From: Acetivibrio thermocellus ATCC 27405
GTDB lineage: Bacteria; Bacillota; Clostridia; Acetivibrionales; Acetivibrionaceae
Reading direction: 5' to 3'
NCBI RefSeq assembly: GCF_000015865.1
Contig: NC_009012.1
Coordinates: 744,001 to 808,000, forward strand
DNA length: 64,000 nt
Shown here: piece after piece, positions 30,347 through 46,914 of the stretch
Layout: each line of letters begins with the position of its first letter
Numbering within the stretch: the stretch's first letter is position 1
Translations under genes and position numbers: made by a program
The notes under the pieces: model-generated
Database searches by the model: none
The model's input: the letters and a program-made list of their open reading frames with translations, nothing else
Told to the model about the DNA's origin: nothing

Positions 30347-31222
30347 ATGGATATTAACAGCATAAAAAGTATAAAGCCCGGCAATCAACTTCCTAAAAAA
30401 TTGTTGGCGATATTTGTAAGCGTGGCGGTTATTATTGGTTCATTTATTTATTTAAACAGCGTAAATGATTCTGCAAAGGATACTGTTGATATTGTTGTTG
30501 TCAAGGCTTCCGGAGGTATACCTGCCAACACTCTCATTACAAAAGATAATATTGGGAAATATTCTATTATCAGAAAAGAATTTAATGATGACATGATTAC
30601 TTATGATAAAGTGGACAGCATTCTTAACAAATACAGCCTGTATTATTTAAGAAACGGGGCTCCTATCTATTATGATCAGCTTACGGACGAAAAACCGCGT
30701 GATACTGAATGGCTGTATGATTTGGAAGAGAATTATGAAGTTCTTACCATAAAGTATGATTATCTTGAATGCGGTGGAAGCATACTGCGGCCGGGAGATC
30801 TGGTAAGAGTCAGGGTTACATATACAGAAGAGATTCCGTCGTCGGACGGTATGATGTACGGCGGTTCGAAAAAAGTAAAGAAAACTGAGATATTGTTTGA
30901 CAGTATTCGCGTAAAGGATCTTATCAACTCTTCGGGACGCTCCATATATGAAGTTTTGAAAGAGGTTTTCAAGCTAAGTGAAAAAGACAGACGGGAAGTA
31001 ATGAAAAGCCGTGATTTTATGCAGAGCATTAAGGCTGAATCATTGCTTCTGGCGGCTACAGAGGAGCAGGTAAACAAATTTGCAAAATTTAAGTCTCAAC
31101 AGGATGCCGTATTTACTTTTACCATTCTGTCGAGAAATGGAAACGATGAAGTATTTGACCAGCTTCCTGTAGTTGAGAAGGAGGTAGAGTCGTGGATAAC
31201 AGAGAGCGAAGCGAAGGATTAG
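30347..31222 (+). CDS. CpaB-like SAF-domain membrane protein
   Basis: A 291-residue protein with an N-terminal cytoplasmic stub, one membrane anchor (about 19-36, LLAIFVSVAVIIGSFIYL) and a SAF domain (about 48-115: VVVKASGGIPANTLITKDNI...RNGAPIYYDQL). SAF/CpaB proteins are periplasmic or cell-wall-side factors in Tad/Flp pilus assembly; in a Gram-positive cell it would face the wall. The rest (about 150-290) is alpha-beta with a charged C-terminus and no recognised domain. It starts behind TAGGGGGG. Its last 31 bases overlap the next frame. Confidence 0.72.
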   Translation: MDINSIKSIKPGNQLPKKLLAIFVSVAVIIGSFIYLNSVNDSAKDTVDIVVVKASGGIPANTLITKDNIGKYSIIRKEFNDDMITYDKVDSILNKYSLYYLRNGAPIYYDQLTDEKPRDTEWLYDLEENYEVLTIKYDYLECGGSILRPGDLVRVRVTYTEEIPSSDGMMYGGSKKVKKTEILFDSIRVKDLINSSGRSIYEVLKEVFKLSEKDRREVMKSRDFMQSIKAESLLLAATEEQVNKFAKFKSQQDAVFTFTILSRNGNDEVFDQLPVVEKEVESWITESEAKD

Positions 31223-32028
31223 AGCTAAAGTCCCTTCTTGAGAAGTTGTCCCCGAGAGATAAGATATATAACGAAATGGAGACAAATAAAATTATTGATA
31301 ATGTTATAGGGTTTATTCCCGCCTCGGATTGTGCGGATTCTTCCATTTTGCTTGTGAATCTGGCGGTGGCAATTGCTCAAAAAGGGTTTAATACTTGTAT
31401 TTTGGATGCCAAGGTTTTTTACCCGAACATATACAAGCTGCTTGATTGCGAAGCAAATGCGGCGGGAAAGGGTCTTATAAGGATTTGCAGAAGTGATAAG
31501 GTTGACATAAGAGATGTGATAAATGAGACCAAATACAAGAATTTATATCTATTGTCTCCAAGTCCCTCTGATCCTATGGAGGACTATTTTGATTTTCAAT
31601 TGGATGATGTCGACAGGGTTATAACCACCCTAAAGGAGACTTTTGATTTTGTGCTTATAGATATTCCGAATAATCCGCCGTTGGAGTTTTGCATTTCGTC
31701 CGTCAAGAATTGCAACGTGGGATTTTTTATATGGAGTGAACGTATTGACTGCCCTCAAAATACCAGCAGATTTTTGGAGTTTGTGGGATCATTGGGAATT
31801 GGTGTATCGAAGCTTATGAATGTGATTTTAAATAATTTATACGGTGTCAAATTTGACAAAACAATAATAGAAGATATGAAATTGAAGCTTATTGCCGAAT
31901 TTCCGTTTGTGTCAGGCGCCATTGATCTTTCGCTTGAAGGAAGGGTGTATATCGCTGACAGCCTGATAATCAACAAAAAGTACAAGGAATCGATGAATTC
32001 GTTGGTTAATATATTGACGAAAAAGTAA
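31192..32028 (+). CDS. Degenerate MinD/ParA-like protein of the Tad cluster
   Basis: A 278-residue protein starting with GTG at 31192, 7 bases after GGAGG and inside the previous gene. Fold cues are FIPASDCADSSILLVNLAVAIAQ and TCILDAKVFYPNIYKLL at the places where a MinD-type ATPase has its P-loop and switch I, then FVLIDIPNNPPLE at Walker B. The P-loop (residues 41-51) has lost every glycine and lysine, so nucleotide binding in the usual way is unlikely. With the TadZ-like protein this makes two altered members of the family in one operon; they could pair as a positioning scaffold (inference). Confidence 0.65.
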   Translation: MDNRERSEGLELKSLLEKLSPRDKIYNEMETNKIIDNVIGFIPASDCADSSILLVNLAVAIAQKGFNTCILDAKVFYPNIYKLLDCEANAAGKGLIRICRSDKVDIRDVINETKYKNLYLLSPSPSDPMEDYFDFQLDDVDRVITTLKETFDFVLIDIPNNPPLEFCISSVKNCNVGFFIWSERIDCPQNTSRFLEFVGSLGIGVSKLMNVILNNLYGVKFDKTIIEDMKLKLIAEFPFVSGAIDLSLEGRVYIADSLIINKKYKESMNSLVNILTKK

Positions 32029-32049
32029 CTGTTTTTTGGAGGGTTTGTA

Positions 32050-33495
32050 ATGTTATCGAGAAGTACTGTAAGTGAACTTCAAAAGAAAGCAAAGTATATA
32101 CATAGAACCAATACTTCAGGAAGCAAGCTCACATCCATGACTTTTGAAGAATGTCTAAAGCAGTGTCAGCAGTATATAAGCAATGTGGCGACAAATTATT
32201 ACAGAAGAATTGAAGACCCGGCCAAAAAGAGGGAAATGACGGAAAGGTATATAATTGACTATGTTGAAACACAGAAGCCTGAAGTGGAAGGATTTGAGGA
32301 ACTTTCGGCCTTAAGAAATGCCCTTATTGATGAGATTACCCAATACGGTCCGATAACAGATGCGATGGAAGACCCTCTAATAGACGAAATCAGAGCCAAT
32401 GGTCCGCAGCAGATATTTGTAGAGAAAAAGGGTAGAACCGAGATTTGGGACAAATGCTTTACCGACAGGGAGCATATGGAAAGAATAATTGCAAAGCTTA
32501 TTGGAGTATCCAAGGTGAGGCTTACCCCAAGAACGCCAATGGTAAATGCCCGTACCATAGAAGGCTACAGGGTCAATGCCACCCATGCGGATATTTCACC
32601 TTACGGCAATCCGGCGTTTGTGGTAAGAAAGTTTAAAAAGTACACTCTGACTCCGGAAGAGATGATAAAGGAAAAATCATTTTCAGTTAATATGTACAAG
32701 CTTCTTTCGCTTATACCCAAGGCCAATCTTTCCTGGATGACGGCCGGGCCTACCGGCAGCGGAAAGACCACTTTGAATGAAGTTTTGATAAAGCATATTG
32801 ATCCGCTGTGTCGTATTATAACAATTGAAAACCCTGCAGAGTACAGGCTGCTAAGGTACAAAAACGATGACCCCAATGAAAGGGTTATAAATGACGTGCT
32901 TCAGTATGAGTGTGTTCCTGATGATGACGACAGCAGTCCGGCAACAATGGAAAATTTGTTGATAAATGCCATGAGACAGTCTCCTCACTGGATAGGTCCC
33001 GGTGAGCTTCGTTCTCCGGGAGAGTTTGAGACTGCCCTGCGCGCTGCGCAAACCGGTCACTATTTCTTTACAACCCTGCATGCGGAAGGAGACCAGGAAG
33101 CAATTTACAGGTTCCTTACTGCTTACCTTATAAAATCAAAAGAACCTGCGGAACTGGCCCTGAGAAATATATGTACCGCCGTTAAATTTGTCATATTCCA
33201 GGAAAAGCTGGCCGACGGAACCCGTAAAGTTACATCAATTTCTGAAGTCAGAGGTTCTGAAGGCTTAAAGCCTATTATTAACCAGATATACAAATTTATT
33301 CCTGAGGATGTTGATGAGGATCCTGTTACAGGGCAAATCAGAGCAATAGTAGGCAAGCACAAGAGAGTAGGCCGTATATCGGATGAGCTTGTTGACAGAA
33401 TGATGAAAGCAGGAATAAAAAAGAGTAAGTTTGAATTCCTCACGCGTCCGGTTGACCCCGATGAAGAGGAGGTTTACGATATAGATGCTCTTTAA
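32050..33495 (+). CDS. TadA/CpaF-type secretion ATPase
   Basis: A 481-residue hexameric traffic ATPase of the VirB11/GspE superfamily, CpaF subgroup, which drives pilus extension. The N-terminal domain ends with PLIDEIRANGPQQIFVEKKGR; Walker A is AGPTGSGKTT (lysine at about 239); the Asp box holds TIENPAEYRL; Walker B region ends in WIGPGELRSPGEFETALRAAQTGH with the His box TTLHAEG. It is the one complete ATPase of the cluster. It has a GGAGGG ribosome binding site, and its last 11 bases overlap tadB. Confidence 0.9.
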   Translation: MLSRSTVSELQKKAKYIHRTNTSGSKLTSMTFEECLKQCQQYISNVATNYYRRIEDPAKKREMTERYIIDYVETQKPEVEGFEELSALRNALIDEITQYGPITDAMEDPLIDEIRANGPQQIFVEKKGRTEIWDKCFTDREHMERIIAKLIGVSKVRLTPRTPMVNARTIEGYRVNATHADISPYGNPAFVVRKFKKYTLTPEEMIKEKSFSVNMYKLLSLIPKANLSWMTAGPTGSGKTTLNEVLIKHIDPLCRIITIENPAEYRLLRYKNDDPNERVINDVLQYECVPDDDDSSPATMENLLINAMRQSPHWIGPGELRSPGEFETALRAAQTGHYFFTTLHAEGDQEAIYRFLTAYLIKSKEPAELALRNICTAVKFVIFQEKLADGTRKVTSISEVRGSEGLKPIINQIYKFIPEDVDEDPVTGQIRAIVGKHKRVGRISDELVDRMMKAGIKKSKFEFLTRPVDPDEEEVYDIDAL

Positions 33496-34462
33496 CGTAC
33501 TTTTTAGTGTAGCTATTGGATTGGTGATTTTGTACATATTGAATGTGGTGCTGGATCTTAGGCTTCTTAACGATTTGAAAAAGCTTGTCAGTTATATAGT
33601 AGACTCCATAGCAAACCATAACACGAAGAAATATCTTGAGAGGATAAAAAGAAGTAAAATAGTCAAGACAAATGACAACATTATATCAAAATACAACAGG
33701 CTGGTGGAGAATATAATTTTCGATTATAATCTGCCGCTGACATTGGAAGGATTTAATTCTTTTATCAGTATACTCTTTGCAATACTGGTTTTGATAGTTG
33801 TGCTTTTTTTAAAGGATATTACGCTTTCAGCTTTGGTTTCCATATCTTTACTGGTAGGCGCAATTACATATTTTACTATGAGATCTAGAAATCTGAAAGC
33901 CGCTAAAATTGAGAGTATAATGGATGCCGAAGACCTGATATGTCCTCTGGCAAGGGACGGAGTTCTTGTGGCGATAAAAAAAGTTTTGGAGTCTGACGAA
34001 TATATTAATGCAGATATAAGGCCGTTTTTTGTTCAGTTTGTGGAAAACTGCGAAAACTACGGTTATTCTTTCAGAAGAGCAATGGAAATACTGAATCGCC
34101 AGTTGGGGCCGAAGTTTGACAACTTTGCGAAAAAAGCGGTTATTTTTGAGTACAACGAACGTAAAGGTATGGCTGATATTTTCCTTGATATTGTTGAAGA
34201 AAATGCTGCTTTAAGAGAAATAAATGCAAGAAAAAACAGAATCTTTAAAAAGATGAACATGAACTTTATAATGAAAACTGCATTGATAGTTATATTTGTT
34301 GCGTATTCGATGACAGTTCCGGAATTAAGGATTTTTATGCTGGAAAGTACAGCGGGGCGCTTTATCCTTACGATGACCATAGTGGCCATCTGTTTAAGCT
34401 TTGCCAGGTGTCAGGCATTGCAAGCCGATATTGGAAGTTTTGGAGGGGATAATAAATGGTAA
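33485..34462 (+). CDS. TadB-like inner-membrane platform protein
   Basis: A 325-residue membrane protein of the T2SSF/TadB type that forms the platform under the pilus with TadC. There is an N-terminal hydrophobic segment (FNVLFSVAIGLVILYIL), a pair near residues 90-135 (ILFAILVLIVVLFL, SALVSISLLVGAITYF), a cytosolic helical domain (SFRRAMEILNRQLG, FDNFAKKAVIFEY) and a C-terminal pair (MKTALIVIFVAYSMTV, ILTMTIVAICLSF). It begins within the end of tadA and overlaps tadC by 7 bases. Confidence 0.8.
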   Translation: MLFNVLFSVAIGLVILYILNVVLDLRLLNDLKKLVSYIVDSIANHNTKKYLERIKRSKIVKTNDNIISKYNRLVENIIFDYNLPLTLEGFNSFISILFAILVLIVVLFLKDITLSALVSISLLVGAITYFTMRSRNLKAAKIESIMDAEDLICPLARDGVLVAIKKVLESDEYINADIRPFFVQFVENCENYGYSFRRAMEILNRQLGPKFDNFAKKAVIFEYNERKGMADIFLDIVEENAALREINARKNRIFKKMNMNFIMKTALIVIFVAYSMTVPELRIFMLESTAGRFILTMTIVAICLSFARCQALQADIGSFGGDNKW

Positions 34463-35340
34463 TACTCTCCAAACTGTGTGCTTTGGCAGCAATAATTTAT
34501 CTTGTTTTCACTTTAATATACCCTCTTTTTAAACCCATGACCCGCAAAAGAAAAGAGCATTCCAGGGATTTTATAAAGCGAAAGAGGAATCAGAAAAAGG
34601 TTGAAAAATATTTGTATTTTAAGGATATAGTGTTAAGAAGACTTTCCAATAAATTTTTCCTTAGTGACATAAAAAGAAATGAACTTAATTTTTTGATAAA
34701 AAGGCTGGACTTGAAAATAACACCGGAAGAGATAAGATTGAAGCAGATTTTGTATGTTATAGGTGCCGTAGGAATATCCTTGATTGCCATGAACATTAAC
34801 ACCCTTATTGGCTATGGATGTTTGATATTTGTTGTGTTGGGATGGCTCTATCCGGTTGATGAACTGGAAAAAATGATTGAAAAAAAGAACAACAACATAT
34901 TGGCAGACTTTCCTTCATTCTACAACATGCTTTACTATCAATACGCCAGATCCATAAACATATATTTGGCGGATGTGGTCAAGGACTTTCTTCCCAATGC
35001 CAATGAGGATATGGCTGCAGAACTGGAGGTTTTTCTTGACAATATTGAGTATGGAGAGGAATATGCATTAAAACAGTTAAAAAAACGTGTTCCGTTAAGA
35101 CACATTATCAAGTTTTGTGATATAATGGAAACAAGATTGAGAGGATACGACAATATTTCTCAGATGACATATTTAAAGAATGAGCTTTATGATTTAAGAG
35201 TTATGTCCCTTGAAGATGAACTGCACAGAAGGGAGCAAAAGAACGCGAGGATGCAGTTTGTTTTAATTGTTGTATTGGCGATTTACATCGTGATCTACTA
35301 TTACTTCATGTTTGTTGATGCCATCAGAATGTTTAGCTAG
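34456..35340 (+). CDS. TadC-like inner-membrane platform protein
   Basis: A 294-residue membrane protein paired with the TadB-like protein. Segments at about 3-22, 98-135 (VIGAVGISLIAMNINTLIGYG) and the C-terminal FVLIVVLAIYIVIYYYFMFV; the central cytosolic part is helical with a leucine/arginine-rich core (VPLRHIIKFCDIMETRLRG). It starts behind GGAGGGG at the tadB stop. Weakly conserved, but position and topology fit TadC. Confidence 0.75.
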   Translation: MVILSKLCALAAIIYLVFTLIYPLFKPMTRKRKEHSRDFIKRKRNQKKVEKYLYFKDIVLRRLSNKFFLSDIKRNELNFLIKRLDLKITPEEIRLKQILYVIGAVGISLIAMNINTLIGYGCLIFVVLGWLYPVDELEKMIEKKNNNILADFPSFYNMLYYQYARSINIYLADVVKDFLPNANEDMAAELEVFLDNIEYGEEYALKQLKKRVPLRHIIKFCDIMETRLRGYDNISQMTYLKNELYDLRVMSLEDELHRREQKNARMQFVLIVVLAIYIVIYYYFMFVDAIRMFS

Positions 35341-35401
35341 TCGTTGGTTATATTTTTACATATAAAAATAATATATTTAGAAAAATAAGGGGGTAATTAT
35401 A

Positions 35402-35617
35402 ATGAATAAAAAATCAAAAAAGGATGTATTGAAAAACTCAATCAAAAAATTTTTGAAAGATGAGAGAGGAGAATTCGGAGTAAAGCAGATTGCTTACACC
35501 GTAGCGGTGATAGTGGTTGTAGGACTTGTTCTCGCTATATTGAGGGATCAGATGGAAGGTATAGTAACTACTATATGGAATTTCTTGTGGGAGAAAATTC
35601 AGGATCTGATGGGTTAA
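35402..35617 (+). CDS. Flp-type pilin-like protein
   Basis: A 71-residue protein with a basic N-terminus, then DERGEFGVKQIAYTVAVIVVVGLVL, one membrane helix (about 29-47) and an amphipathic tail. This aligns with Flp pilins, which usually read DExGxxxIEY before the helix; here IEY is IAY, so the conserved glutamate at position 5 after cleavage is absent. A prepilin peptidase site would fall after G26, which is uncertain. Four to six genes of assembly machinery precede it, with a 61-base gap and a strong AAGGGGG ribosome binding site, as expected for an abundant subunit. No prepilin peptidase gene is in the window. Confidence 0.75.
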   Translation: MNKKSKKDVLKNSIKKFLKDERGEFGVKQIAYTVAVIVVVGLVLAILRDQMEGIVTTIWNFLWEKIQDLMG

Positions 35618-35628
35618 TAAATTGTATG

Positions 35629-35677
35629 TAAGGAGGTTAGACCCGGCGGTATTAACGAAACCGGGTGATTTTCCATG
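35629..35677 (+). promoter_or_regulatory. Shine-Dalgarno separated from its start codon by a hairpin
   Basis: TAAGGAGG at 35629-35636 is followed by an ACCCGG (35641-35646) / CCGGGT (35661-35666) hairpin and then ATG at 35675. The linear distance is 38 bases; with the hairpin folded it falls to about 12. No in-frame start is available closer to the Shine-Dalgarno: the in-frame ATT at 35651 soon meets a TGA. Confidence 0.55.
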
Positions 35678-36277
35678 GCGGGTTTTGCAAAAAGTTTGGT
35701 AATTGTGCTCATAGTTTGCGTTGTATTTTTGATAACAACGAATTTCATATTTTTCTTTCCCTGGTACATGACTTTGGCCTATGAGACATACAATTTATCC
35801 ACATTGGCGGCACAGCACAACTATATAGACAGGGATGAGGCGCAAATGATACTTGACAACCTGAACAAAAAACCTTTTTTCAAGGAAAACCCTGTTACTT
35901 TTGATGATATAGATGGAGAAACCGAGCCTGGAAAGCTGCAAAGAGGAGAGCAGTTTACTGTTAGCATAACGGCAAAGTATCCCATCCGTATGGATATGGG
36001 AATTGTTAACATAAGGAGAGACTGGCCTGTAACTTTTTCGGTGGAGACAACGTGCCTGTATTATGATAAAAATTTGGACCCGCTGTATAAAAGTGATGAC
36101 CTGATTTTTGACGAGCCAATATATGATGAACCAATATATTATGATGAGCCGGCATATGACGATCCATCATATACTGGTCCGACAGAAGATGAGCCATTAT
36201 ATGATGAACCGGCATATGATGATCCAACGCATGCTGTGCCGACAGAAGGTGCTCCACCATTTGAGGAGCCGATATAA
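35675..36277 (+). CDS. Single-pass pseudopilin/TadE-like protein with acidic Pro-Tyr repeat tail
   Basis: A 200-residue protein with one N-terminal hydrophobic helix (about 6-30, SLVIVLIVCVVFLITTNFIFFF), an extracytoplasmic domain to about 140 (SITAKYPIRMDMG, WPVTFSVETTCLYY), and a C-terminal tail of residues 145-200 built from DEP-[IAL]-Y units. The tail includes an internal duplication of about 22 residues (YDEPAYDDP twice). TadE-like minor pilins share the topology, but I cannot name the family with certainty. The tail is strongly acidic and probably extended. It follows the Flp gene and precedes a second single-pass protein by 19 bases. Confidence 0.6.
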   Translation: MAGFAKSLVIVLIVCVVFLITTNFIFFFPWYMTLAYETYNLSTLAAQHNYIDRDEAQMILDNLNKKPFFKENPVTFDDIDGETEPGKLQRGEQFTVSITAKYPIRMDMGIVNIRRDWPVTFSVETTCLYYDKNLDPLYKSDDLIFDEPIYDEPIYYDEPAYDDPSYTGPTEDEPLYDEPAYDDPTHAVPTEGAPPFEEPI

Positions 36278-36295
36278 CTGCAAAAAGGTGATACT

Positions 36296-36781
36296 ATGAG
36301 AAATTTGGCAATAGCAATCCTGATTATTGTAGTTGCGTCAATGTTGTTTCAACCCTTTTTCGAAATGGTTGAAATTTTCGCTGAAAAGGCACAGATAGAT
36401 TCTGCCGTTGAGTCAGCGGCGAAATCCGCACGATTGACAGGCTTTAAGTTGTCGGATATCAGAGATTTGGAAAAAAAGTTTAATTTTGATATGGACAGTG
36501 AAGATGAAAACTTTATCAGCGTATTTTGTGATGTATTTGCCGCAACCCTTAATTTGGAGTTTTTATATGTGATTGATAATAAAGCATACTTTAAATCAAA
36601 TAATGAAAGATATAATGATTTTGTGGTTGAATTCCAATATGACAAAGATTATCCCGACAGATGTCACGTTATTGTCACGACGAATTATAAATTTAAAAGA
36701 AATTACTTAAAGCAATTTGTAGGGGATAATTCTTTTGAACTGGTAAGGGAAAGAACATTGTTTGCCCGTATGGAAAATTAA
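36296..36781 (+). CDS. Single-pass pseudopilin-like protein of the Tad cluster
   Basis: A 161-residue protein with an N-terminal hydrophobic helix (about 3-25, LAIAILIIVVASMLFQPFF), then DSAVESAAKSARLTGF, the small-residue helix typical of TadE/TadF minor pilins, and an alpha-beta domain. I do not recognise a specific family. It is the last gene of the Tad-type operon; the kinase gene converges on it 31 bases away. The shared end has a long GATGAGGG (36791) / CCCTCATC (36828) inverted repeat, which could act as a weak two-way terminator. Confidence 0.6.
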   Translation: MRNLAIAILIIVVASMLFQPFFEMVEIFAEKAQIDSAVESAAKSARLTGFKLSDIRDLEKKFNFDMDSEDENFISVFCDVFAATLNLEFLYVIDNKAYFKSNNERYNDFVVEFQYDKDYPDRCHVIVTTNYKFKRNYLKQFVGDNSFELVRERTLFARMEN

Positions 36782-36811: not shown

Positions 36812-38899
36812 TTAAAGGTAAAACCAGCCCTCATCATCATCTTCATTATGGTTTTTATCCATGCTTATTTTTGTCCGGTTGCTTCCGCCTAAAGATATGC
36901 TGTAAAGCTTCCCGCTGTTAAGTTTGCTGCAATAGTATATGTGTTCGTTGGCCAAATTTATAAATTCGGAATTTTCATTATTGAGTTTTGTTTTATCAGT
37001 GCCTTCTGTCCTGATTCTGTAGATACTGCCGCCGTCGCTTTTGTTGCAGTAGTATATCCAGCCGTTTGACACGTTTATATTGTAGGATATATCATCATTC
37101 AGCTTGTTTTTGGAACGACCGTCAATACTTGCTCTGTACAGCTTGAATCCGTCACTTTTATTGCAGTAGAAAATATAATCACCGTAAACATTGATGTAAC
37201 TGGCTTCATCGTTTACGATTCTTGTTCTTCCTTTACCGAGAGTATTTATTTTGTATATTTTTCCTCCGTCGCTTTTGTTGCTGTAGTACAGCCAATCATC
37301 CTTCAAAAAGAGACTCTGGGTGAAATCATTATTCAGCTTGGTCCTTTCGGTACCGTCGGTTTTTATTTTGTAAAGTTTGTATCCGTCACTTTCGTTTATA
37401 TAGTAAATCCACTCTCCGCAAACTGTTATGTCCCAGGAACGGTCAGTGTTGAGTCTGGTCTTACCGTTTCCTTCCAAATCAATTCTGAATATATTGTCAT
37501 CATTATTCGGGTCGGTGTAATAAATCCAGTTTCCGCAGACATTAAGAAACCACGATTCGTCATTGTTTATCCTTTGAAGGTCGCTTCCATCAAGTTTCAC
37601 TTTGTAAATATTAAAGTCACAGCCGGCATTGGAGAAATAAAGCCAGGAACCCTGCGTGCACACCAGTCCGCCGTTTAATATGTTGCCGGAATGGTTTCCC
37701 GTAAGATTATAAACCATTTCTCTTCTTAACAAACTTCCGAATATGCTGACTGTCCTGTCCAGTGTTTTTTTCGGCGCTTGTGGCGGTTTTGGAACTTCCA
37801 GCAGCACGGTATCCATACACTCATCATCTGTATTTTTTTCGTTCTGGTTTGCAATGTCAGACTGCGGCAGAATTACAGTATCAATCACTTTTTCAGTATC
37901 GTCAGCTTTTTCAGCCTCATCGGCAGCGGCCGGCGGAACGACCCAGTATGAACGTTCTTCACTGCTCATTTCCGACAAAATCTCATAAAGCGCCTTTTTT
38001 GCCTCTGTGGCTGAAGCATATCTTTCGTCTGGATTGTAAGCACATATTTTCAATATAAACTGCGAGAGCTTTTCTCCGGCAAGCATCGGGGGAGTGATTG
38101 CCTCTCCGGAAAGCCTCTTGTCCAAAGCTGTTTCACTGTCTTTATATTTCAACTCCTGGGGATAGGGAGGCATAAACGGAAATCTTCCGTGGTTTAAAAG
38201 TTTATACATCACAATACCTAGGGAATACAGGTCGGATCTTGAATCATAGGGCTTTCCTCTGTAGACTTCCGGTGCCATATAGAGGGGAGTGCCCCGTATG
38301 GAGGAAGCCAGCGAGAGCCGGGTCAGCTCTTTTGCAATACCGAAATCACCGAGCTTGAATTTGCCGTCTGATGTGACAAATATATTTTCATCCTTTATAT
38401 CTCTGTGAATTATTCTTTTTTGCTCACAGATTTCCAAAGCAGAACAAATATCCAAAGCAAGGTTTACTACCCCTACCCGGGTAAGGCCGTTTTTCAATAT
38501 GTATTTATTAAGTGTTGTAAGATACTCCATCCGTATGAGTATGTCCCAGCCAAAACGATTACTGCTTTTTTGCACCAGGTGGTCTTCGTAGCTTACTATA
38601 TTTGTGTTTCCGCGCAAGGTGTACATCATATGTATTTCGTTGACTATATTTTTAACAGCGCTTTCAAAATATTGTTCCAGAGAATTTTTATCGTTACCGA
38701 TGGTAGCAAGAGCTTCGCGGTGCTGTTCCTGAGTGGGAATGCTTATGAATTTTAAAGCAGACTGGTATTTAAAGCCCCACTCTTCTTTATAAATCTTATA
38801 CACTTTACCATAGCTTCCTTCGCCGATAAAGGATTCTACAAACCATGCTCCCCACAAAGGTTCGTATTTTTTTATATAGTCATCAGAAGAAACGAGCAT
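36812..38899 (-). CDS. Ser/Thr protein kinase with C-terminal seven-repeat (DUF5050-like) domain
   Basis: A 695-residue soluble Hanks-type kinase. Kinase domain about 20-310: glycine loop GEGSYGKVY (26-34), Lys50, HRDIKDEN (D167), DFG (D185), GTPLYMAPEV. A flexible acidic linker (about 311-385) holds three T-V-x-[L/I] sites at T341, T364 and T383. Residues about 405-680 are seven repeats of about 42 residues with W-[IL]-Y-Y and SDG-x-x-[IL]-Y-[KR]-I, the DUF5050/beta-propeller-like pattern. No membrane segment or PASTA domain is present, so unlike PrkC the sensor would be in the cytosol. It is the last gene of the type VII-like group, after its cognate-looking phosphatase. Confidence 0.85.
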   Translation of the reverse strand: MLVSSDDYIKKYEPLWGAWFVESFIGEGSYGKVYKIYKEEWGFKYQSALKFISIPTQEQHREALATIGNDKNSLEQYFESAVKNIVNEIHMMYTLRGNTNIVSYEDHLVQKSSNRFGWDILIRMEYLTTLNKYILKNGLTRVGVVNLALDICSALEICEQKRIIHRDIKDENIFVTSDGKFKLGDFGIAKELTRLSLASSIRGTPLYMAPEVYRGKPYDSRSDLYSLGIVMYKLLNHGRFPFMPPYPQELKYKDSETALDKRLSGEAITPPMLAGEKLSQFILKICAYNPDERYASATEAKKALYEILSEMSSEERSYWVVPPAAADEAEKADDTEKVIDTVILPQSDIANQNEKNTDDECMDTVLLEVPKPPQAPKKTLDRTVSIFGSLLRREMVYNLTGNHSGNILNGGLVCTQGSWLYFSNAGCDFNIYKVKLDGSDLQRINNDESWFLNVCGNWIYYTDPNNDDNIFRIDLEGNGKTRLNTDRSWDITVCGEWIYYINESDGYKLYKIKTDGTERTKLNNDFTQSLFLKDDWLYYSNKSDGGKIYKINTLGKGRTRIVNDEASYINVYGDYIFYCNKSDGFKLYRASIDGRSKNKLNDDISYNINVSNGWIYYCNKSDGGSIYRIRTEGTDKTKLNNENSEFINLANEHIYYCSKLNSGKLYSISLGGSNRTKISMDKNHNEDDDEGWFYL

Positions 38900-39021: not shown

Positions 39022-39852
39022 TTATGATAAGATGTCTTCAATTTTAACAACAATGCAGGTTATATTGTCAAATCCTCCGTTTTCCAGTGCCTCGTTTATA
39101 AGCTTTGATGCAGCTTTTGAAGGTGTGTTTTCAGTGTTTATAACATCTTTTATGCGCTCATTTTCAACCATGTTCGTAAGACCGTCGGTGCAAAGAAGAA
39201 ATACATCTCCTTTTTTTACAAAAAAGCTTTCCGATATGTCTGCCTCAATAATTCCTTCTTTAGGAGGTATGCCCAGAAACTTGTAAAGCATGTTTTTACT
39301 TGCGCTTTTTGATGCTTCTTCGGGACTTAAAATGCCCAATCTTACAAGTCTTTCCGCTTCCGTGTGGTCTTTGGTGAGTTGAACAATTTCACCGTCTGTC
39401 ACATGATATATACGGCTGTCTCCCAGGTTGAACGTTTGTGCCCGGTCACCGCATATCAGAAGAGCGGCAAAGGTTGTTCCCATTCTTGCACCGTATTGAA
39501 CACTCATATTATATATCAGATTATTGGTATTTTTAATATAAGAATTAATATTGACTGCGCAACTGTTAATATTGCCGTTGTTATTGTTTTTAATGAGATT
39601 GTGGGCTTTTTTTAATTCCCTCATGGCAGTAAGAGAGGCTTCATCTCCACGGATTTCTCCGCCCAGGCCGTCACTTACCGCAAACAGAAAAAAGGAATCA
39701 GCTTCGTTTATATCAAAAAGAATTGTTTTTTCCGTCATGGACGGAGAAAAAAATATGCCGTTAAGATAAAAATTGTCTTCATTGGCGCTGCGCACATAAC
39801 CGATATGAGTCGCGGCTGTAGCGCGAAGAATTATATTTTTTTCACTATACAT
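39022..39852 (-). CDS. PP2C-type Ser/Thr protein phosphatase
   Basis: A 276-residue PPM phosphatase that would remove phosphate from Ser/Thr sites set by the neighbouring kinase. The metal-site motifs are TAATHIGYVRSANEDNFYL, SDGLGGEIRGDEAS, NLGDSRIYHV, LLCTDGLTNMV and GGFDNITCIVV. The length is slightly above the 240-250 residues usual for Stp/PrpC enzymes owing to an insertion near residues 88-115 (NNNNGNINSCAVN). The gene lies 122 bases upstream of the kinase on the same strand. Confidence 0.9.
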   Translation of the reverse strand: MYSEKNIILRATAATHIGYVRSANEDNFYLNGIFFSPSMTEKTILFDINEADSFFLFAVSDGLGGEIRGDEASLTAMRELKKAHNLIKNNNNGNINSCAVNINSYIKNTNNLIYNMSVQYGARMGTTFAALLICGDRAQTFNLGDSRIYHVTDGEIVQLTKDHTEAERLVRLGILSPEEASKSASKNMLYKFLGIPPKEGIIEADISESFFVKKGDVFLLCTDGLTNMVENERIKDVINTENTPSKAASKLINEALENGGFDNITCIVVKIEDILS

Positions 39853-39987: not shown

Positions 39988-40236
39988 TTATAGAATTGTT
40001 AGAATAGAACCGTCCCATACACCGGCGTCTTCCAGTGTTTCGTCATCCCTGAGAACCCGTCCCAAGGGCTCGGCATACAGATGAAACTTCGAGGTGACGC
40101 TGGTTAAATCATCGTCAAGGCGAAGGGCATAGGCTATCAAGGATGACAGATGCTTTGCCGGTATATCGGTGGGGAGTTCTAAATCACGAGTGTCTTTTTT
40201 ATTTTTGCACTTGACGGTAACAATTACACTGTTCAT
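39988..40236 (-). CDS. YukD/EsaB-like ubiquitin-fold protein of a type VII-like system
   Basis: An 82-residue protein predicted to have a ubiquitin-like beta-grasp fold. Text such as VIVTVKCKNKKDTRDLELP, a central helix (AKHLSSLIAYALRL) and the closing LEDAGVWDGSILTIL match YukD/EsaB, which accompany WXG100 systems in Firmicutes. It lacks a C-terminal Gly-Gly. It is between the WXG100 gene and the phosphatase, separated from the former by two hairpins. Its role in secretion is regulatory or structural in known systems. Confidence 0.82.
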   Translation of the reverse strand: MNSVIVTVKCKNKKDTRDLELPTDIPAKHLSSLIAYALRLDDDLTSVTSKFHLYAEPLGRVLRDDETLEDAGVWDGSILTIL

Positions 40237-40387: not shown

Positions 40388-40690
40388 TTATGACCCACTG
40401 CGAAGTTTAGCAGCTACATCCTTGTCAGCCTGTTCAAGAGCATTTGCAACAGATGTGAGGGACCTTTCAAGGTCTGACAGACATTGATTCAGCTTGGTTT
40501 CAAGTTCTTTTCTCAGTGCCATAAACTGTTCTACATAAGCTTCAGCAGCTTTACCTTCCCAAATACTTTTCAGGCTGTCTATTTCTCTTTGAATACTGTT
40601 AAGAAAATTGGTAGTTTCACTAGTCTTTTTACCTATTTTCACAGCAGCGCTTCGCACTTGCTCAGGTGTAATACGAATAACACTTGCCAT
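40388..40690 (-). CDS. WXG100 family protein (EsxA/ESAT-6-like)
   Basis: A 100-residue helical-hairpin protein from the ATG at 40690, 8 bases after GGGGG; the frame extends 11 residues upstream without a ribosome binding site. The turn motif is W44-E45-G46 in KSIWEGKAAEAY, at the middle of the chain as expected, with long helices on both sides. WXG100 proteins are small substrates and structural parts of type VII secretion. I see no C-terminal YxxxD/E export signal in the LEQADKDVAAKLRSGS tail. The gene has its own promoter and a strong terminator, suggesting high independent expression beside the essC-like gene. Confidence 0.9.
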   Translation of the reverse strand: MASVIRITPEQVRSAAVKIGKKTSETTNFLNSIQREIDSLKSIWEGKAAEAYVEQFMALRKELETKLNQCLSDLERSLTSVANALEQADKDVAAKLRSGS

Positions 40691-40763
40691 TTTCATATCC
40701 CCCTTTAAAAAGCATTTTGGCATAAATTTCGCCTATATGAAGTCTGTACCAAATAACAATAAT

Positions 40764-40826: not shown

Positions 40827-43800
40827 TTATTCGACAGATTGATTGTTTTTTCTGTAACTTTTATTAATCTGTGTTATCCATGCTTTTAAGATATTGTTTT
40901 CCAGCAAGGCGGTTTTTACCCTGCAGAAACGACCGCGGTTTATAAGATAACCGTCACCGGGCTTTATCGCTTTTTCGGTTGTTCCATAGGGAAGTCTTAC
41001 GGAAAATACCTGCTGGTCCGATATGCTTCCCAGTAGCAAACCTGTTTGCATGTCCTTCATAGCCTTTGCAAAATTGTCCCAGCTGGAACCTATATCTTCG
41101 GTGTAAGATGCCATGATAATACTTATGCCGAGATTACGCTCCTTTTTTACCAGGCGTTCAAACAAGTCCGTGACGATAGAGTCGGCATACTGGGAAAAGT
41201 CATTTAAGTCGTCAATAAGAATAAGACTTAACCGGCGATTTAAAACAAATTCCTTTTCATTAATCAATCCTCCGGATCGAATTCTTTCTTCGTTAAGTTC
41301 AGCTTTTCTGTTATCAATTTCTTGTTGAAGGGCTTCTGCAAATTCACTTATGTTGTGCCCGTCATTTGTATAGTTTTTTGTATGGGGAAGCTGGCTTAAC
41401 GCATAAAGCCCCAGAGAGCTTGAGTCAAAAATGTGTATGTCCAGCTTTTCCGGAGAAAATTTAAGGGCAAGGGTGACGGCCAGCGCCTGAAGAAATGTTG
41501 TCTTACCGCTTTGAATATCTCCGGATACCAAAAAATGAGGAGTTTCCAGAAGATCTATGAAACATGGTTCCATTTCATTTTCTTCGATTCCCAGAGGTAT
41601 GCACAAAGGCTTACGGGCAATAGTCTTTTTTACATCGTCCCGTGTAATAAGATCCTTGTAATATACAATTTCCGGCATGACGGGAATAGGCTTGGCTTTA
41701 GGTCCTGTCCAGCTTTGGGATATTGCACCGATGGTTGATTTAATTTTAATTGTTCGTTCAATTTCTGATTCTCCTTCTGCCGGCAAGGCAGTCTGAAATT
41801 CAAGGGGAGGATTGCCTTTTACAAGACCGCGTCCGTTTACAGGACTTGGTTCCAGTCCATTGGTTCTTCCCACAATAAGTGCATAATCCCCTTTGTCGGC
41901 CATCTGGAGTGCCACAGCCAGCTTGAAGTTGGAACTTAGTTTATAGCTTATGGACGATGTGCTGCTGTTGGTTATTACTATATGCAATCCAAGATTGCCG
42001 CCTTCCCTCGAAATCTGAATCAGATAATCCTCATATTCTGAGTACATTTCGCTGAAGGCGGAGTAATTGTCAATGACAATTACAATTGCAGGAAGCGTTT
42101 CTCCGCAGGAATCCCTGTAAGCTGTGAGGCTGCTTACTCCTTTGTCGGAGAAGAGGTCTTTTCGGGTATCCATTTCTTTTATGAGGAATTTGAAAAGTTT
42201 GCTTAGTTTTTCTTCCTCGTCGACCATTACCGTTCCTCCGACATGGGGAAGTCCGGAGAATATACCCAGAGTTCTTACGCCAAAGTCAAGGATGTAAATG
42301 TTTACATCGGAAGGAGAGTAGTTTAACGCCAGCGACATAATGAGTGTCTGCAAAAATGTGGTTTTGCCGTATCCCGGTGAGCCGTATACGATTAAATGCC
42401 CTTCTTTTCCAAGGTCAACTGTCAAAGGAACCTGGCGCTGATTTTCCGGGTCATCCAAAAGTCCGACGACCGGATTTAACCATGAATCCGCCTTTGTCCA
42501 TTTTTCACCGTCCCAGCATCCTTTCACATCGGCAAGGAGACTTTCAAGGTAAAGCTTTTCCGGAAGAGGCGGAAGCCATGGGCCTTTAAGACGAACAATA
42601 TTTTCTTTTTGCGCCACGTTTGCTATATGGGAAACGGCAGCCTGAAGCTGGGTAAACTCGGCTTTTCTTATTTGTGATGCGGATCTTGTATAAAGTTGGT
42701 GGCGTTTACCGTTTATGGCCACTTCTGAAATTTCATTGTGAGTGGTAATTTCCTCACTGGCATCGGGAGTATAACCTGCTCCGCTCCATGCGGACTGGAA
42801 AAGCTCAAAAATTTCATCGTTTCCAACCTGGATGTAGGCTCTTCCGGGTTGTTTGATATTTGCGGCATCCGGACGTTTGATTACATCCTGGCTGTCCTGA
42901 GGTCCCTGAACTTTAAGACAGATACGGAAGCGGGCGTTACTCCATATCTGGTCATCAACTACCCCGGCCGGCTTTTGTGTTGCGAGAATAAGGTGCACTC
43001 CAAGGCTTCGGCCGACTCTTGCGGTACTTACCAATTCCCTCATGAAATCCGGCTGTTCACTTTTTAACTCGGCAAACTCATCCGCAATTATCACAAGATG
43101 GGGAAGAGGTTCTTTGGCTTTTTGGCTGTGATAAAGCTTTTGATAGCTGTCTATATGATTTACTCCGTATTGGGCAAAAATTGTCTGTCTTCTTTTAAGC
43201 TCGCTCTTAATGGATACGAGGGCACGGGTTGTCTGGTTTCCTCCAAGGTTGGTTATTGTTCCGACCAAATGGGGCAAATCAAGGAAAGCGTTTGCCATGC
43301 CTCCTCCTTTATAGTCTATAAGCACAAAAACTACGTCATGAGGATGAAAGTTTATTGCAAGAGAGATTATAAATGACTGTAAAAGCTCACTTTTACCGGA
43401 ACCTGTGGTACCTGCCACCAAACCATGAGGACCCTGGCCACGTTCGTGAAGGTCAAGAGTAAGTATTTCATTGCCTGTGCGTATGCCAAGAGGTGCCGCC
43501 AGTGTCCGGAAAGATTTGTTGTTTTTCCAGCGTTCCAGTACGTTTAATTCTTCAACAGTTCTGACGGAATACATCTGCAAAAGAGTTATTGATGAAGGCA
43601 GACTTACGGAAGTCAACAATTCCTTTATGCGTATTGGTGCCATTCTTCTTGCAAAATGCTCGGCATCTTTTATGGACACAATATCCGGCAAAAAAGGCAT
43701 GGGGGAGGAGCCTTGGTTTCTTTGCACCATATGTCCGGATTTTGGAGCCAGCTCAATGATAGCCTGGCAATCTTTCGGAAGATATTCAATTCTGTCAAAA

Positions 43801-45506
43801 AGATAAATGGTTGATATACCCAAGGCTTGATTGTTATGAGCCAAATAATTCATAATCGGCTCATCTTCAATCAAACGAATATCGGCCAGAATAAATACAT
43901 AATGAGGCAAATTTACCGGAGTTGGCGGTATATTATCTTTATCTTTGCCGGTGCGTTGCTCCCGTTCTTTTATTACGTCGTATAAATGGCTGAACAGCTG
44001 ATGTGTCATGTCCTTGTCATTTGCCAGAAAACGAATTTGCCGATTTTCATTCCATACATGGGGCAGCCAGCGAATCCATTCCCATTCGTCGGCTTCCTCT
44101 TTTGGATAAACCAGCACGATTTTTACCTCTTCATAGGAGTGAAAAGTTGCCAGTTGTATAATCAAAGCTCTGACGTTTTTCAGAACTTCGCTTCTTGATC
44201 CTATTATTCCGGCCGTGCCTGAATGAAACAAAGGGACGCAAACAGGTATGTCCGATACCTGGCTAAATTCATCGTAAATTTTTTGAGGTTCTGACATCAA
44301 AGGATCGCTGTCGATGCTCAGCAGCTGACTTTGAACATTAATCTTAATTGCCAGGGGCGTGGTTCCTATACCTATGCGCGCCGACAGAAAGTCTTTAAAC
44401 TGGGGAGTTCTTTCCCAAAGTCTTCTGTCTATGGTTTCAACACGTCTGATACATTCCGCCGGGTCAGGATTCATGATAAGCATACCTTTTTTTTGCTGTT
44501 CCCGGGCTATTTCAAGTTCTTTGCGTATTGAATGGATGATTTCTCCGTATTTTTTGTTTCGCAGCTCAATATCATCTTTGAACTTTTTATTTTGAGATAT
44601 ATATTGAGATATTGATACAATTACCGATACAAAGGTCATTGAAACCGAAAGCAGCATATAGAGCGATTTGCCCACAATTGCTGTAATTATTGTTATTAAG
44701 GACATTACTATCGGGGGCAGCAAAATACTTATCCATGATGCGGTAGGTTTGGATGCCAGCGCCGGCGGATTGGGGATTGTTTTTTCACCCTCGGGCATTT
44801 CAGGTATAAGTCTTGGAGAACGCTGTATATAGGGGTAAGGCGGTTTGGTTTGTTTTAAGGCTGCTTTAAGCCCGTTGACATATACTCTGTCCCCTATGTG
44901 GTATACTGAAATAAATGAACCTTCAAAAACAATTTTATATCCGCAAATATATATTACGTCACCTTGGCTTAAGACGCTGTCATAAACCTTTTTACCGTTT
45001 AGAAAGGTGCCGTTTAAACTCTCAAGATCCGCGATATGATATTTTCCGTCAATGGATTTATATATCTTGGCATGCTCACCTGAAACCAATTTGTCAGAAT
45101 AAACTATGTTGCAGGATTCACTTTTTCCGATGGTGATTTCGGAAACACCCCGTATTTCAAAGTTTTCCACAACATTATCATAAGGATCTTCTGGTTTTAC
45201 AATTATGGCGGCTCTGCTCATGGTTTCCGGTGAATTTCCAATAATATAAGTATCATAGGGAACGAGCATTTTCCTGCTTATTGTGCTTCCATCGTAGAAA
45301 ATGCCCGATTTACTGTGATTGTAGATATACCACTGGTTATCTTCTTTTTTAAGGGAGCAGTGATTTTCATCAATACAAGATGAGTCAATCACTATGTCAT
45401 TTGTACCGGAACGCCCGATGGATATTATGTTTTTATTAAAAGCATCAATTTCAACAATCTTAAAAAAATTATCAAAATATATATGCAGAAGATATTTATT
45501 ACTCAT
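40827..45506 (-). CDS. FHA-FtsK/SpoIIIE ATPase of a type VII-like secretion system (EssC-like)
   Basis: A 1559-residue membrane ATPase with EssC/YukBA architecture. Two N-terminal FHA domains: the first (about 25-85) has IGRSGTNDIVID; the second (about 120-195) is canonical with IGKSES, SGEHAKI and DLESLNGTFLNG. Two membrane helices follow near residues 255-305 (ISILLPPIVMSLITIITAIVG). Three FtsK-type ATPase domains have Walker A sequences GTTGSGKSE (about 700), GSPGYGKTT (about 1047) and GDIQSGKTT (about 1330). It would push WXG100 proteins across the membrane. The canonical FHA domain binds phosphothreonine, and a kinase and phosphatase are encoded just downstream. EssB/YukC and EsaA homologues are not in the window. 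Confidence 0.92.
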   Translation of the reverse strand: MSNKYLLHIYFDNFFKIVEIDAFNKNIISIGRSGTNDIVIDSSCIDENHCSLKKEDNQWYIYNHSKSGIFYDGSTISRKMLVPYDTYIIGNSPETMSRAAIIVKPEDPYDNVVENFEIRGVSEITIGKSESCNIVYSDKLVSGEHAKIYKSIDGKYHIADLESLNGTFLNGKKVYDSVLSQGDVIYICGYKIVFEGSFISVYHIGDRVYVNGLKAALKQTKPPYPYIQRSPRLIPEMPEGEKTIPNPPALASKPTASWISILLPPIVMSLITIITAIVGKSLYMLLSVSMTFVSVIVSISQYISQNKKFKDDIELRNKKYGEIIHSIRKELEIAREQQKKGMLIMNPDPAECIRRVETIDRRLWERTPQFKDFLSARIGIGTTPLAIKINVQSQLLSIDSDPLMSEPQKIYDEFSQVSDIPVCVPLFHSGTAGIIGSRSEVLKNVRALIIQLATFHSYEEVKIVLVYPKEEADEWEWIRWLPHVWNENRQIRFLANDKDMTHQLFSHLYDVIKEREQRTGKDKDNIPPTPVNLPHYVFILADIRLIEDEPIMNYLAHNNQALGISTIYLFDRIEYLPKDCQAIIELAPKSGHMVQRNQGSSPMPFLPDIVSIKDAEHFARRMAPIRIKELLTSVSLPSSITLLQMYSVRTVEELNVLERWKNNKSFRTLAAPLGIRTGNEILTLDLHERGQGPHGLVAGTTGSGKSELLQSFIISLAINFHPHDVVFVLIDYKGGGMANAFLDLPHLVGTITNLGGNQTTRALVSIKSELKRRQTIFAQYGVNHIDSYQKLYHSQKAKEPLPHLVIIADEFAELKSEQPDFMRELVSTARVGRSLGVHLILATQKPAGVVDDQIWSNARFRICLKVQGPQDSQDVIKRPDAANIKQPGRAYIQVGNDEIFELFQSAWSGAGYTPDASEEITTHNEISEVAINGKRHQLYTRSASQIRKAEFTQLQAAVSHIANVAQKENIVRLKGPWLPPLPEKLYLESLLADVKGCWDGEKWTKADSWLNPVVGLLDDPENQRQVPLTVDLGKEGHLIVYGSPGYGKTTFLQTLIMSLALNYSPSDVNIYILDFGVRTLGIFSGLPHVGGTVMVDEEEKLSKLFKFLIKEMDTRKDLFSDKGVSSLTAYRDSCGETLPAIVIVIDNYSAFSEMYSEYEDYLIQISREGGNLGLHIVITNSSTSSISYKLSSNFKLAVALQMADKGDYALIVGRTNGLEPSPVNGRGLVKGNPPLEFQTALPAEGESEIERTIKIKSTIGAISQSWTGPKAKPIPVMPEIVYYKDLITRDDVKKTIARKPLCIPLGIEENEMEPCFIDLLETPHFLVSGDIQSGKTTFLQALAVTLALKFSPEKLDIHIFDSSSLGLYALSQLPHTKNYTNDGHNISEFAEALQQEIDNRKAELNEERIRSGGLINEKEFVLNRRLSLILIDDLNDFSQYADSIVTDLFERLVKKERNLGISIIMASYTEDIGSSWDNFAKAMKDMQTGLLLGSISDQQVFSVRLPYGTTEKAIKPGDGYLINRGRFCRVKTALLENNILKAWITQINKSYRKNNQSVE

Positions 45507-45711: not shown

Positions 45712-46914
45712 TCAATCAGTTCTATTTTTTATATCTATAAATATGTCACTGATATCTTCTTCATTTGCTTCTTCCCCGGATTTGCCGCCGGAGGACTCAA
45801 TTGAGTCTTTTTCGGAATTCTGAGAGGAATCAATAAACTCTCTTAGTTCAAGCAGCTCATCAATAGCACTGTCGGATTCTTCCGCCTCTTTTGAAGTACT
45901 TTCGGTATTGTTTTCCGTATCCTGTGCTTTTTCGTCTTTTAATTCCGAAATTCTAATTTCATCAAACAAATTCATAATATTGCCGTCGGCCGGCATTTCA
46001 GTTTCATCCGGGGCAGGAGTTTTTTGATTGCCAGATGTATCTTTCTCTGGCATATCTATTTCTTTAATATCATCAAAGAGTCCCAACAAGTCTTCCTCCG
46101 AAATTTCTTCTTTTTCGGCGTTGGTTTGCAAATTGGATTCCACTTCAAATTCAGGTGCTTCAAACTCGTTCTGCATATCCTCTTCGATTAAGAAATCAGG
46201 TACTTCCAGGTCCGCGGACAGCATGGCAGCATCGTCCAAAGCCGTTTTATCCAAGACTTCCGGTTGTTTTAATTCTACTGTGAAACTGTCTTCTAAAGCG
46301 AGGCTGCCGTTTATAAATATTTGCAGTTTCCATTCGCCCGCAATTGTATCATCATTTATATTGATCTGAAATAAAGCTTCATTTTTCCTGTTTTCATTTT
46401 TTTCGCCGTCGTTTAGGACACTTTCCTGAATCTCATGGATTTCGTTATTGGGAGCATACCATATTGCGTTTACCGTATGCAAGCCCGTTATGTCGGAAAA
46501 ACCGATTTTCAGCATAATACTTGAGTGTTTGTCCTTATAGCATTTTCTTTCACCGTTTTCACAGTATGAAAGTTCTTTGTCAACGCTCAAAAAGCTGTAA
46601 CTTTCAATATTGAGCGAAGCGGGTTTCGTATTGATAATCCTCTTGTTGCTTTCATCAATTATGATAAAAGACGCAGTGCCGCCCTTGTCATCATAGGTGT
46701 AAATCAGGGCGTTTGGGTCATTAAAAAGTATGCTGTCATTTATTAAAAATTTGTATCTATATTTGCCGGGAGACAGTTCGATTTCCGTCATCCATGTACC
46801 GTCATCATGCCTTTTCAAAATATTTTTGCCGCCGTCCCAGTTATTGAAATCTCCTATAACAGATATACTTTTAATATCAAGATTGTCGCAACAATAATAA
46901 AACGGATATTTCAT
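45712..46914 (-). CDS. CBM48/AMPK-beta-like domain protein with acidic repeat-motif tail
   Basis: A 400-residue soluble protein. Residues 1-88 are a CBM48 (E-set, AMPK-beta-like) domain: VIGDFNNWDGG, GTWMTEIELSPGKYRYKFLING-like text. Residues about 100-216 look like a second beta-sandwich (MLKIGFSDITGLHTVNAIWY). Residues 217-400 are acidic and low-complexity, with three copies of a short motif: DLLGLFDDIK (275-284), NIMNLFDEIR (312-321) and DISDIFIDIK (387-396). No signal peptide or membrane helix is present. CBM48 normally binds alpha-glucans, so it may sense glycogen or have been reused as a protein-binding module. It is the first gene of the type VII-like set, 205 bases before the essC-like gene. 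Confidence 0.7.
   Translation of the reverse strand: MKYPFYYCCDNLDIKSISVIGDFNNWDGGKNILKRHDDGTWMTEIELSPGKYRYKFLINDSILFNDPNALIYTYDDKGGTASFIIIDESNKRIINTKPASLNIESYSFLSVDKELSYCENGERKCYKDKHSSIMLKIGFSDITGLHTVNAIWYAPNNEIHEIQESVLNDGEKNENRKNEALFQININDDTIAGEWKLQIFINGSLALEDSFTVELKQPEVLDKTALDDAAMLSADLEVPDFLIEEDMQNEFEAPEFEVESNLQTNAEKEEISEEDLLGLFDDIKEIDMPEKDTSGNQKTPAPDETEMPADGNIMNLFDEIRISELKDEKAQDTENNTESTSKEAEESDSAIDELLELREFIDSSQNSEKDSIESSGGKSGEEANEEDISDIFIDIKNRTD

Follow-up and report, generated by a model that had tools for sequence, protein, structure and literature searches.

Through which sites does a serine/threonine kinase encoded in a type VII secretion system (T7SS) gene cluster reach its partners? 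This question is raised by a stretch of 64,000 nucleotides from the genome of Acetivibrio thermocellus ATCC 27405 (contig NC_009012.1, positions 744,001 to 808,000; called the window here, and numbered from its first letter), where such a kinase carries three threonine sites in the linker behind its catalytic domain. A sequence-only reading had regarded these threonines, T341, T364 and T383, as possible ligands of FHA domains. Comparison with related proteins places the three threonines in a recurrent, threonine-specific motif found in the tails of T7SS-related clostridial kinases. They are probably docking sites by which the kinase reaches its partners, and we lean towards the view that all three are FHA ligands. 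The gene and its parts are the following:

36812..38899, minus strand: serine/threonine kinase with a C-terminal DUF5050 propeller, 695 amino acids (aa) (Pkinase E 1.4e-42, DUF5050 E 4.1e-84)
37994..38836, minus strand: kinase domain, aa 22-302, with the motif HRDIKDEN (Pkinase match and translation)
37697..37993, minus strand: linker, aa 303-401, acidic and polar (62.5% DEKRSTPNQG across aa 306-401)
37877-37879, minus strand: T341 (VIDTVILPQ), TVxL type (translation); absent in genomes G009 and G013
37808-37810, minus strand: T364 (CMDTVLLEV), TVxL type (translation); retained in G009 and G013
37751-37753, minus strand: T383 (LDRTVSIFG), TxxΦF type; retained in G009 and G013, with counterparts in G026 and G028
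36896..37696, minus strand: DUF5050 propeller, aa 402-668 (profile match)

The three threonines stand exactly where the sequence-only reading had placed them, all in the linker and all in an exact T-V-x-[L/I] pattern. No other TVx[LI] site is present in the 695 residues of the kinase. Of the 35 threonines in the protein, 7 lie in the linker, as do all 3 of these sites (p 0.005 for random placement among the threonines). The context of T383, DRTVSIFG, is a textbook copy of TxxΦF, and the strict form of this pattern occurs only once, at T383, among the kept open reading frames (ORFs) of at least 70 aa in the window. The kinase retains the catalytic motif. It is not a PASTA kinase of the PrkC/PknB kind (NCBIfam equivalog score of 138.9 bits, against a cut-off of 450), and a simple hydropathy scan revealed no transmembrane stretch (top 19-residue value 1.37, within the kinase domain).

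For motif statistics, kinases of this family were first collected by an order search (present in 13 of 58 genomes) and a class search (26 of 391), from which the pattern was drawn; 78 further loci and the matches of a phylum search (3 of 398) were then added. The removal of cut domain ends, scores below 350 bits and tails shorter than 30 aa left 150 of 175 matches. Reduction at 90% identity then brought the training set from 47 to 35 and the held-out set from 103 to 86 kinases, the latter all below 90% identity among themselves and with the training kinases. Recording of the pattern, acidic-x-T-x-x-[ILVM]-F, preceded the fetching of the held-out loci, and the held-out tails were viewed before the test. 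A wider class, [ILVMAD], was introduced only after this viewing, and the count of TV.[LI] without a following phenylalanine was added last.

In the 86 held-out tails, T..[ILVM]F was detected 34 times, spread over 26 tails (mean of 1.67 and maximum of 7 across 1000 shuffles), and TV.[LI] 18 times in 16 tails (shuffle mean 2.25, with none of 1000 shuffles as high). The corresponding serine forms occurred once each, against 2.01 expected for S..[ILVM]F and 2.42 for SV.[LI], in tails where serine outnumbers threonine (788 vs 708). Serine, asparagine and alanine at the threonine position all gave no enrichment in the held-out tails. Threonine rather than serine is what is expected of FHA ligands. 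The two patterns overlap, with phenylalanine next in 8 of the 18 TV.[LI] sites; sites without it, the type of T341 and T364, number 10 against 2.18 in shuffles (serine form 1 vs 2.40). For T..[ILVM]F the excess was also found after a collapse at 60% identity to 30 kinases (6 vs 0.62) and with shuffles of two-residue blocks (34 vs 2.79). A logo of all threonines in the held-out tails, drawn with no motif selection, gives E/D at -2, K/R/G at -1, V/E at +1, S at +2, L/M/I at +3 and F at +4, the last being seen 57 times where 14.2 were expected.

Counted per threonine, T..[ILVM]F amounts to 34/708 in the tails, 159/17073 in other ORFs of the same loci and 0/983 in the kinase domains; the other ORFs show no threonine excess (234/21775 for serine). 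The strict TxxΦF form reaches 3.81 per 10,000 aa in the kinases vs 0.24 in unclassified ORFs, whose 12 matches include pieces of kinases. As a control, 36 PASTA kinases were taken, of which 6 with tails below 30 aa were dropped and several of the remaining ones come from the family of the window genome; T..[ILVM]F is present in 0 of these 30 tails.

The TVxL type leads to a second protein family, which combines DUF6382 with an FHA domain. DUF6382 was matched in 60 of 245 genomes of the class. The window genome has a single match at 1.62 Mb (locus L071), with the window itself at 0.74-0.81 Mb, and this protein carries ETTVIF and EETVYLG ahead of its FHA domain. In 30 DUF6382 linkers, [DE].T[VI].[LIVM] was counted 15 times vs 1.77 in shuffled sequences (serine form 3 vs 2.29), and TV.[LI] 18 times vs 4.08 (SV.[LI] 8 vs 5.40). 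Among the 27 of these 30 proteins, some of them close relatives, in which the FHA domain lay within the available stretch, the threonine before the FHA domain is aligned and kept in 26, including that of the window genome, and the +3 residue is leucine or isoleucine in 26. Such threonines, single or paired, were seen by eye in 15 further DUF6382-FHA proteins, mostly from the family of the window genome. On this alignment, DUF6382-FHA proteins carry the TVxL type in a fixed position immediately ahead of their FHA domain.

The conservation of the threonines in orthologues was proposed with the sequence-only reading as a check of it, and the outcome is divided. A search of 14 family genomes, the window's own included, gave an intact kinase orthologue in 7 and a broken one in G013. 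T364 and T383 are retained in G009 and in the broken gene of G013, while T341 is found in neither. The kinase linkers of G001, G002 and G003 bear one [DE]TV[IL]L site each (PDTVLL, PETVLL and PETVIL), and a DUF6382-FHA protein in each of these genomes carries NETVYL, NETILL and NETVLL, respectively. Counterparts of T383 are present in G026 (EETVSIFS) and G028 (NRTVSLFG). At the level of the order, the kinase occurs in 13 of 58 genomes, and 9 of these 13 bear a site of either type; the four without are G011, G012, G048 and G049. Positional conservation of all three threonines is thereby ruled out, as the sites turn over between orthologues. To judge from these alignments, conservation works through the motif and not through the position.

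Three kinase loci deserve a remark of their own. The kinase-propeller protein of G031 (L038:9047-11929) has a long linker with six GT[VI]xL sites, five of which have the form TxxLF. In G028 (L042:6290-7372), kinase and propeller lie in separate open frames, and NRTVSLFG stays in the propeller frame. The frame breaks in the kinase and EssC genes of G013 (L035) could be an assembly error.

A candidate reader is encoded in the same gene cluster. Upstream of the kinase gene, on its 5′ side and in the same direction, follow genes for a PP2C phosphatase, YukD, a WXG100 protein, an EssC that bears two FHA domains, and a protein of the CBM48 type:

39022..39852, minus strand: PP2C-family phosphatase, upstream neighbour of the kinase (profile match; NCBIfam Stp1/IreP 187.9 bits, under the cut-off of 230)
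39988..40236, minus strand: YukD/EsaB-like small protein (PF08817)
40388..40723, minus strand: WXG100 protein (PF06013)
40827..45506, minus strand: EssC-type ATPase with two FHA and three FtsK/SpoIIIE stretches (T7_EssCb_Firm over cut-off)
45270..45425, minus strand: EssC FHA1, pocket degenerate by eye
44946..45137, minus strand: EssC FHA2 with G127-K128, S142, H145 and N165, hence Arg-to-Lys in the phosphothreonine pocket (alignment; AlphaFold2 model)
45712..46914, minus strand: protein with a CBM48/AMPK-type domain, first gene of the cluster (PF16561)

Adjoining this cluster, a plus-strand group of genes at 28738-36781 of the window reads as a Tad pilus by eye. Tad genes beside the T7SS cluster are reported for the subtypes T7SSg and T7SSh.

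The canonical pocket of an FHA domain that binds phosphothreonine consists of arginine, serine, histidine and asparagine. The sequence-only reading had assumed a canonical FHA domain in the cluster; EssC does carry two FHA domains, of which the second, with Lys128 for arginine, is not fully canonical. The N-terminus of EssC is modelled by AlphaFold2 as two FHA folds, with a predicted local distance difference test (pLDDT) of 92-97 per 10-residue block over aa 121-190. The nearest structures in the PDB are the Bacillus subtilis T7b core unit 9qks, EssC 5fwh and then GarA.

EssC was found in 12 of 18 genomes searched for co-occurrence. Its FHA region and the kinase are both present in nine, both missing in three (G004, G005 and G006) and never discordant (p 0.0045, with the three forming one genus). 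In these three, members of the sister genus g3, a stand-alone DUF5050 protein lies beside an EssC frame of 1289-1307 aa in which the match starts after the FHA region. The loci concerned (L233 in G004, L234 in G005 and L235 in G006) contain YukD, the stand-alone DUF5050 and EssC without FHA; a WXG100 gene was seen in L234. Since these loci fit the published T7SSg, FHA and kinase seem to be gained or lost together. In training and held-out sets together, motif-bearing kinases have EssC or WXG100 in the locus more often than others (22/29 vs 31/92, p 8.7e-5).

The state of the EssC pocket was compared with the sites by means of tables set by hand, where a lenient definition of intact was used ([RK], [SGT], H, N); the pocket of L099 was assessed by eye. 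The class table excludes L118, which is identical with L051, the broken L035, L066 with its cut FHA, and L084, whose kinase ORF does not contain the linker. In the 13 genomes of the order, TxxΦF accompanies an intact pocket in 5 of 6 cases vs 1 of 7 without (p 0.029); TVLL is unrelated to the pocket state (3/6 vs 3/7). EssC is a possible reader of kinase sites on this comparative evidence, with the odds slightly to its disadvantage, and it probably does not read sites of the TVLL type.

From these observations the linker appears, in our somewhat favoured reading, as an array of candidate phosphothreonine docking sites, with EssC reading TVSIF and the DUF6382-FHA protein reading TVLL. The kinase would autophosphorylate its own linker. 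Phosphorylated T383, of the TVSIF type, would then most likely recruit the EssC ATPase via FHA2, and phosphorylated T341 and T364, of the TVLL type, would most likely recruit the DUF6382-FHA protein, whose gene lies in another part of the genome. Because this protein bears the same kind of site before its own FHA domain, as GarA does, it could dock on the kinase, become phosphorylated at that site and close on itself. The adjoining PP2C phosphatase would reset the system.

The motif points to specific residues and defines a consensus, both accessible to testing by a few phosphopeptides. Kinases, phosphatases and FHA domains in clostridial T7SS clusters have already been noted, and control by phosphorylation has been raised (PMC11217815). 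In the literature on T7SS and FHA or on DUF6382, judged by titles and abstract openings, we found no such phosphothreonine sites, and, judged by the titles listed, no phosphoproteomic study of C. thermocellum.

Several observations weigh against this assignment of sites to FHA readers. T..[ILVM]F is not enriched in the linkers of the DUF6382-FHA proteins (4 vs 3.20, n=30). In the 27 pockets of these proteins, histidine and asparagine are invariant and arginine (20) or lysine (7) is present; the usual serine is replaced by glycine in 19 and kept in 8. An AlphaFold2 model of motif and FHA domain (L090), which has no phosphate, shows the motif disordered at a pLDDT below 50 and no docking. In EssC FHA2 it is the key arginine that is exchanged, for Lys128, with S142, H145 and N165 kept. 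The strict TVΦL form (acidic or asparagine at -2) is as frequent in whole kinases as in unclassified ORFs (1.02 vs 0.99 per 10,000 aa; serine version 0.28 and 0.91, respectively). Beyond the order, the class-wide test of TxxΦF against the EssC pocket is not significant (11/15 vs 1/5, p 0.11), nor is that of the motif against any FHA domain in the locus (18/32 vs 35/89, p 0.15). The tests of pocket against motif were devised after the data had been viewed, and kinship among genomes and kinases as well as shared loci make all p values too favourable. Furthermore, the kinase linkers of G011 and G012 have no TVx[LI]-type site, just KTEVY and KTGIY. PASTA-kinase tails contain T[VI].[LIVM] in 13 of 30 cases (1.26 in shuffles) and TV.[LI] in 3 of 30 (0.39); the looser form is thus not confined to the kinase family of the window. 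As a negative control PASTA kinases are therefore clean for T..[ILVM]F alone, and not for T[VI].[LIVM] or TV.[LI].

Bacterial Hanks-type kinases prefer threonine with a hydrophobic residue at +3. The threonine specificity and the +3 residue could reflect this preference of the kinase itself, and the sites would then be autophosphorylation sites that tune the kinase or do nothing, with no FHA reader involved. The occurrence of T[VI].[LIVM] in PASTA-kinase tails is consistent with this, as are the juxtamembrane threonines of StkP, which are phosphorylated in vivo and for which an FHA reader is no more than proposed (PMC12077195). However, many substrates should then bring a threonine excess in other proteins of the same loci, where we found none, and a mere substrate preference accounts poorly for a TVxL site fixed immediately before FHA domains or for a kinase that, in the genomes searched, accompanies an EssC with FHA and is absent where EssC has none. 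We regard this explanation as possible but on the unlikely side. The sequence-only reading had instead an autophosphorylated linker recruit the ATPase, and in its plainest form EssC alone would read all three sites through FHA2. The shared gene cluster, the joint presence of EssC FHA and kinase, and the tracking of TxxΦF with an intact pocket in the 13 genomes of the order speak for it. The FHA region of the B. subtilis EssC homologue binds the pseudokinase YukC (PMC9600267), a protein found over cut-off in none of 16 genomes here (EssB/YukC, PF10140; one match below cut-off in G005, B. subtilis control positive). However, besides the lysine in FHA2, a TVLL-type site is kept in G002 and G003, where a search at E<=1e-30 detected no EssC, and in G001 despite a degenerate pocket (GY) in its EssC FHA, and TVxL is absent in G012, whose pocket is intact and adjacent. 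These cases indicate that EssC is not the sole candidate reader; exclusive reading by EssC is not supported and, in our judgement, unlikely. The sequence-only proposal is thus supported in part: the recurrent threonine-specific motif, the TVxL site fixed before FHA domains and the co-occurrence of the kinase with EssC FHA are in its favour, whereas recruitment of EssC alone is not supported.

The motif might also dock partners as a plain hydrophobic short linear motif with no phosphorylation at all. The ATPase FHA region of B. subtilis binds its pseudokinase independently of phosphate (PMC9600267), and most DUF6382-FHA pockets are without the usual serine. A phosphate-independent motif should tolerate serine, so the lack of serine enrichment counts against such docking, as do asparagine and alanine, which are not enriched at the threonine position either; we consider it very unlikely. 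Hardly credible, finally, is an origin by chance or by the compositional bias of acidic, low-complexity linkers. Three sites within a single protein are a small number, and neither G009 nor G013 has T341. For T341 alone, chance could still hold. For the family, chance is contradicted by the held-out sequences: the shuffles, the block shuffles and the controls with serine, asparagine and alanine rule it out as the source of the motif.

Other possible FHA ligands were seen in passing. The PASTA kinase of the genome (L072:3437-5563) has a different juxtamembrane site, SPTVRIPS, common to its relatives and a possible ligand of a small FHA protein with a seemingly complete pocket (L070:6562-7086). 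Small proteins near kinases (L049:3230-4621, L049:11344-12282 and L141:7336-7995) have one apparent transmembrane stretch each, preceded by QTVGVF, STVSVF and KTVSVF as possible further ligands; two of them show, by eye, an N-terminal zinc-ribbon-like stretch.

A more speculative extension can also be formulated. A two-letter phosphothreonine code might link kinases to clostridial secretion, with TxxΦF read by the FHA domain of the T7SS ATPase and TVΦL by DUF6382-FHA switches (here encoded beside Tad-like genes), so that one kinase would address both machines; the contact of pseudokinase and EssC in T7SSb would be a phosphate-free descendant. We offer this idea tentatively, as it is rather improbable on present sequence evidence.

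Among the known secretion systems, the threonine phosphorylation pathway of the type VI secretion system (T6SS), with PpkA, PppA, Fha and TssL, likewise couples a kinase, a phosphatase and an FHA protein with a machine for secretion; the Fha protein of Agrobacterium binds phosphorylated Thr14 of TssL (PMC3953482). The machine is a different one, and the candidate ligand here is on the kinase itself. In T7SSb, too, a protein with a kinase fold accompanies EssC and its two FHA domains; the FHA pocket is described as not conserved, and the binding to YukC is taken as phosphate-independent (PMC9600267; also PMC4925161). However, YukC is a pseudokinase, whereas the window kinase keeps the catalytic motif. 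With T7SSg, for which DUF5050 and an ATPase lacking FHA are listed (PMC11217815), the window shares the DUF5050 propeller and the adjacent genes identified by eye as Tad, and differs by the two FHA stretches of its EssC. By gene content, the window system fits neither T7SSb, as no YukC over cut-off was detected, nor T7SSg, as its EssC has FHA. T7SSe and T7SSj comprise the kinase TsxD, the PPM phosphatase TsxF, an FHA-bearing ATPase and TsxJ, a DUF6382-FHA protein, and phosphorylation control was raised for them (Garrett et al., PMC11217815); no ligand sites are known to us from that account. Kinase, phosphatase, FHA-bearing ATPase and a DUF6382-FHA protein in the genome are common to both. In contrast, the window kinase has no transmembrane stretch in the hydropathy scan and is fused to DUF5050, and the DUF6382-FHA protein is not in the T7SS cluster of the window genome, its sole match lying at 1.62 Mb.

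For the docking itself, a close comparison is PknB of Mycobacterium tuberculosis, whose phosphorylated juxtamembrane region is read by FhaA (as reported in PMC12077195). Both are Hanks-type kinases with threonine sites outside the catalytic domain and an FHA reader, here a candidate. PknB is of the PASTA type, whereas the window kinase lies in a T7SS cluster, its linker leads to DUF5050, and the candidate readers are EssC and the DUF6382-FHA protein.

The second half of the proposed mechanism has counterparts in OdhI and GarA, each with a threonine site in an unstructured stretch before its FHA domain. Phosphorylation of GarA takes place at the first threonine of ETTS, within a peptide that ends VETTSVFR, and the protein's own FHA domain binds the site (PMC5448819); this threonine fits T..[ILVM]F. 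The DUF6382-FHA proteins are larger and often have glycine for serine in the pocket. In common with GarA and OdhI, they have a threonine site in a constant position ahead of the FHA domain, and the motif may tie this uncharacterised family to the same kind of switch.

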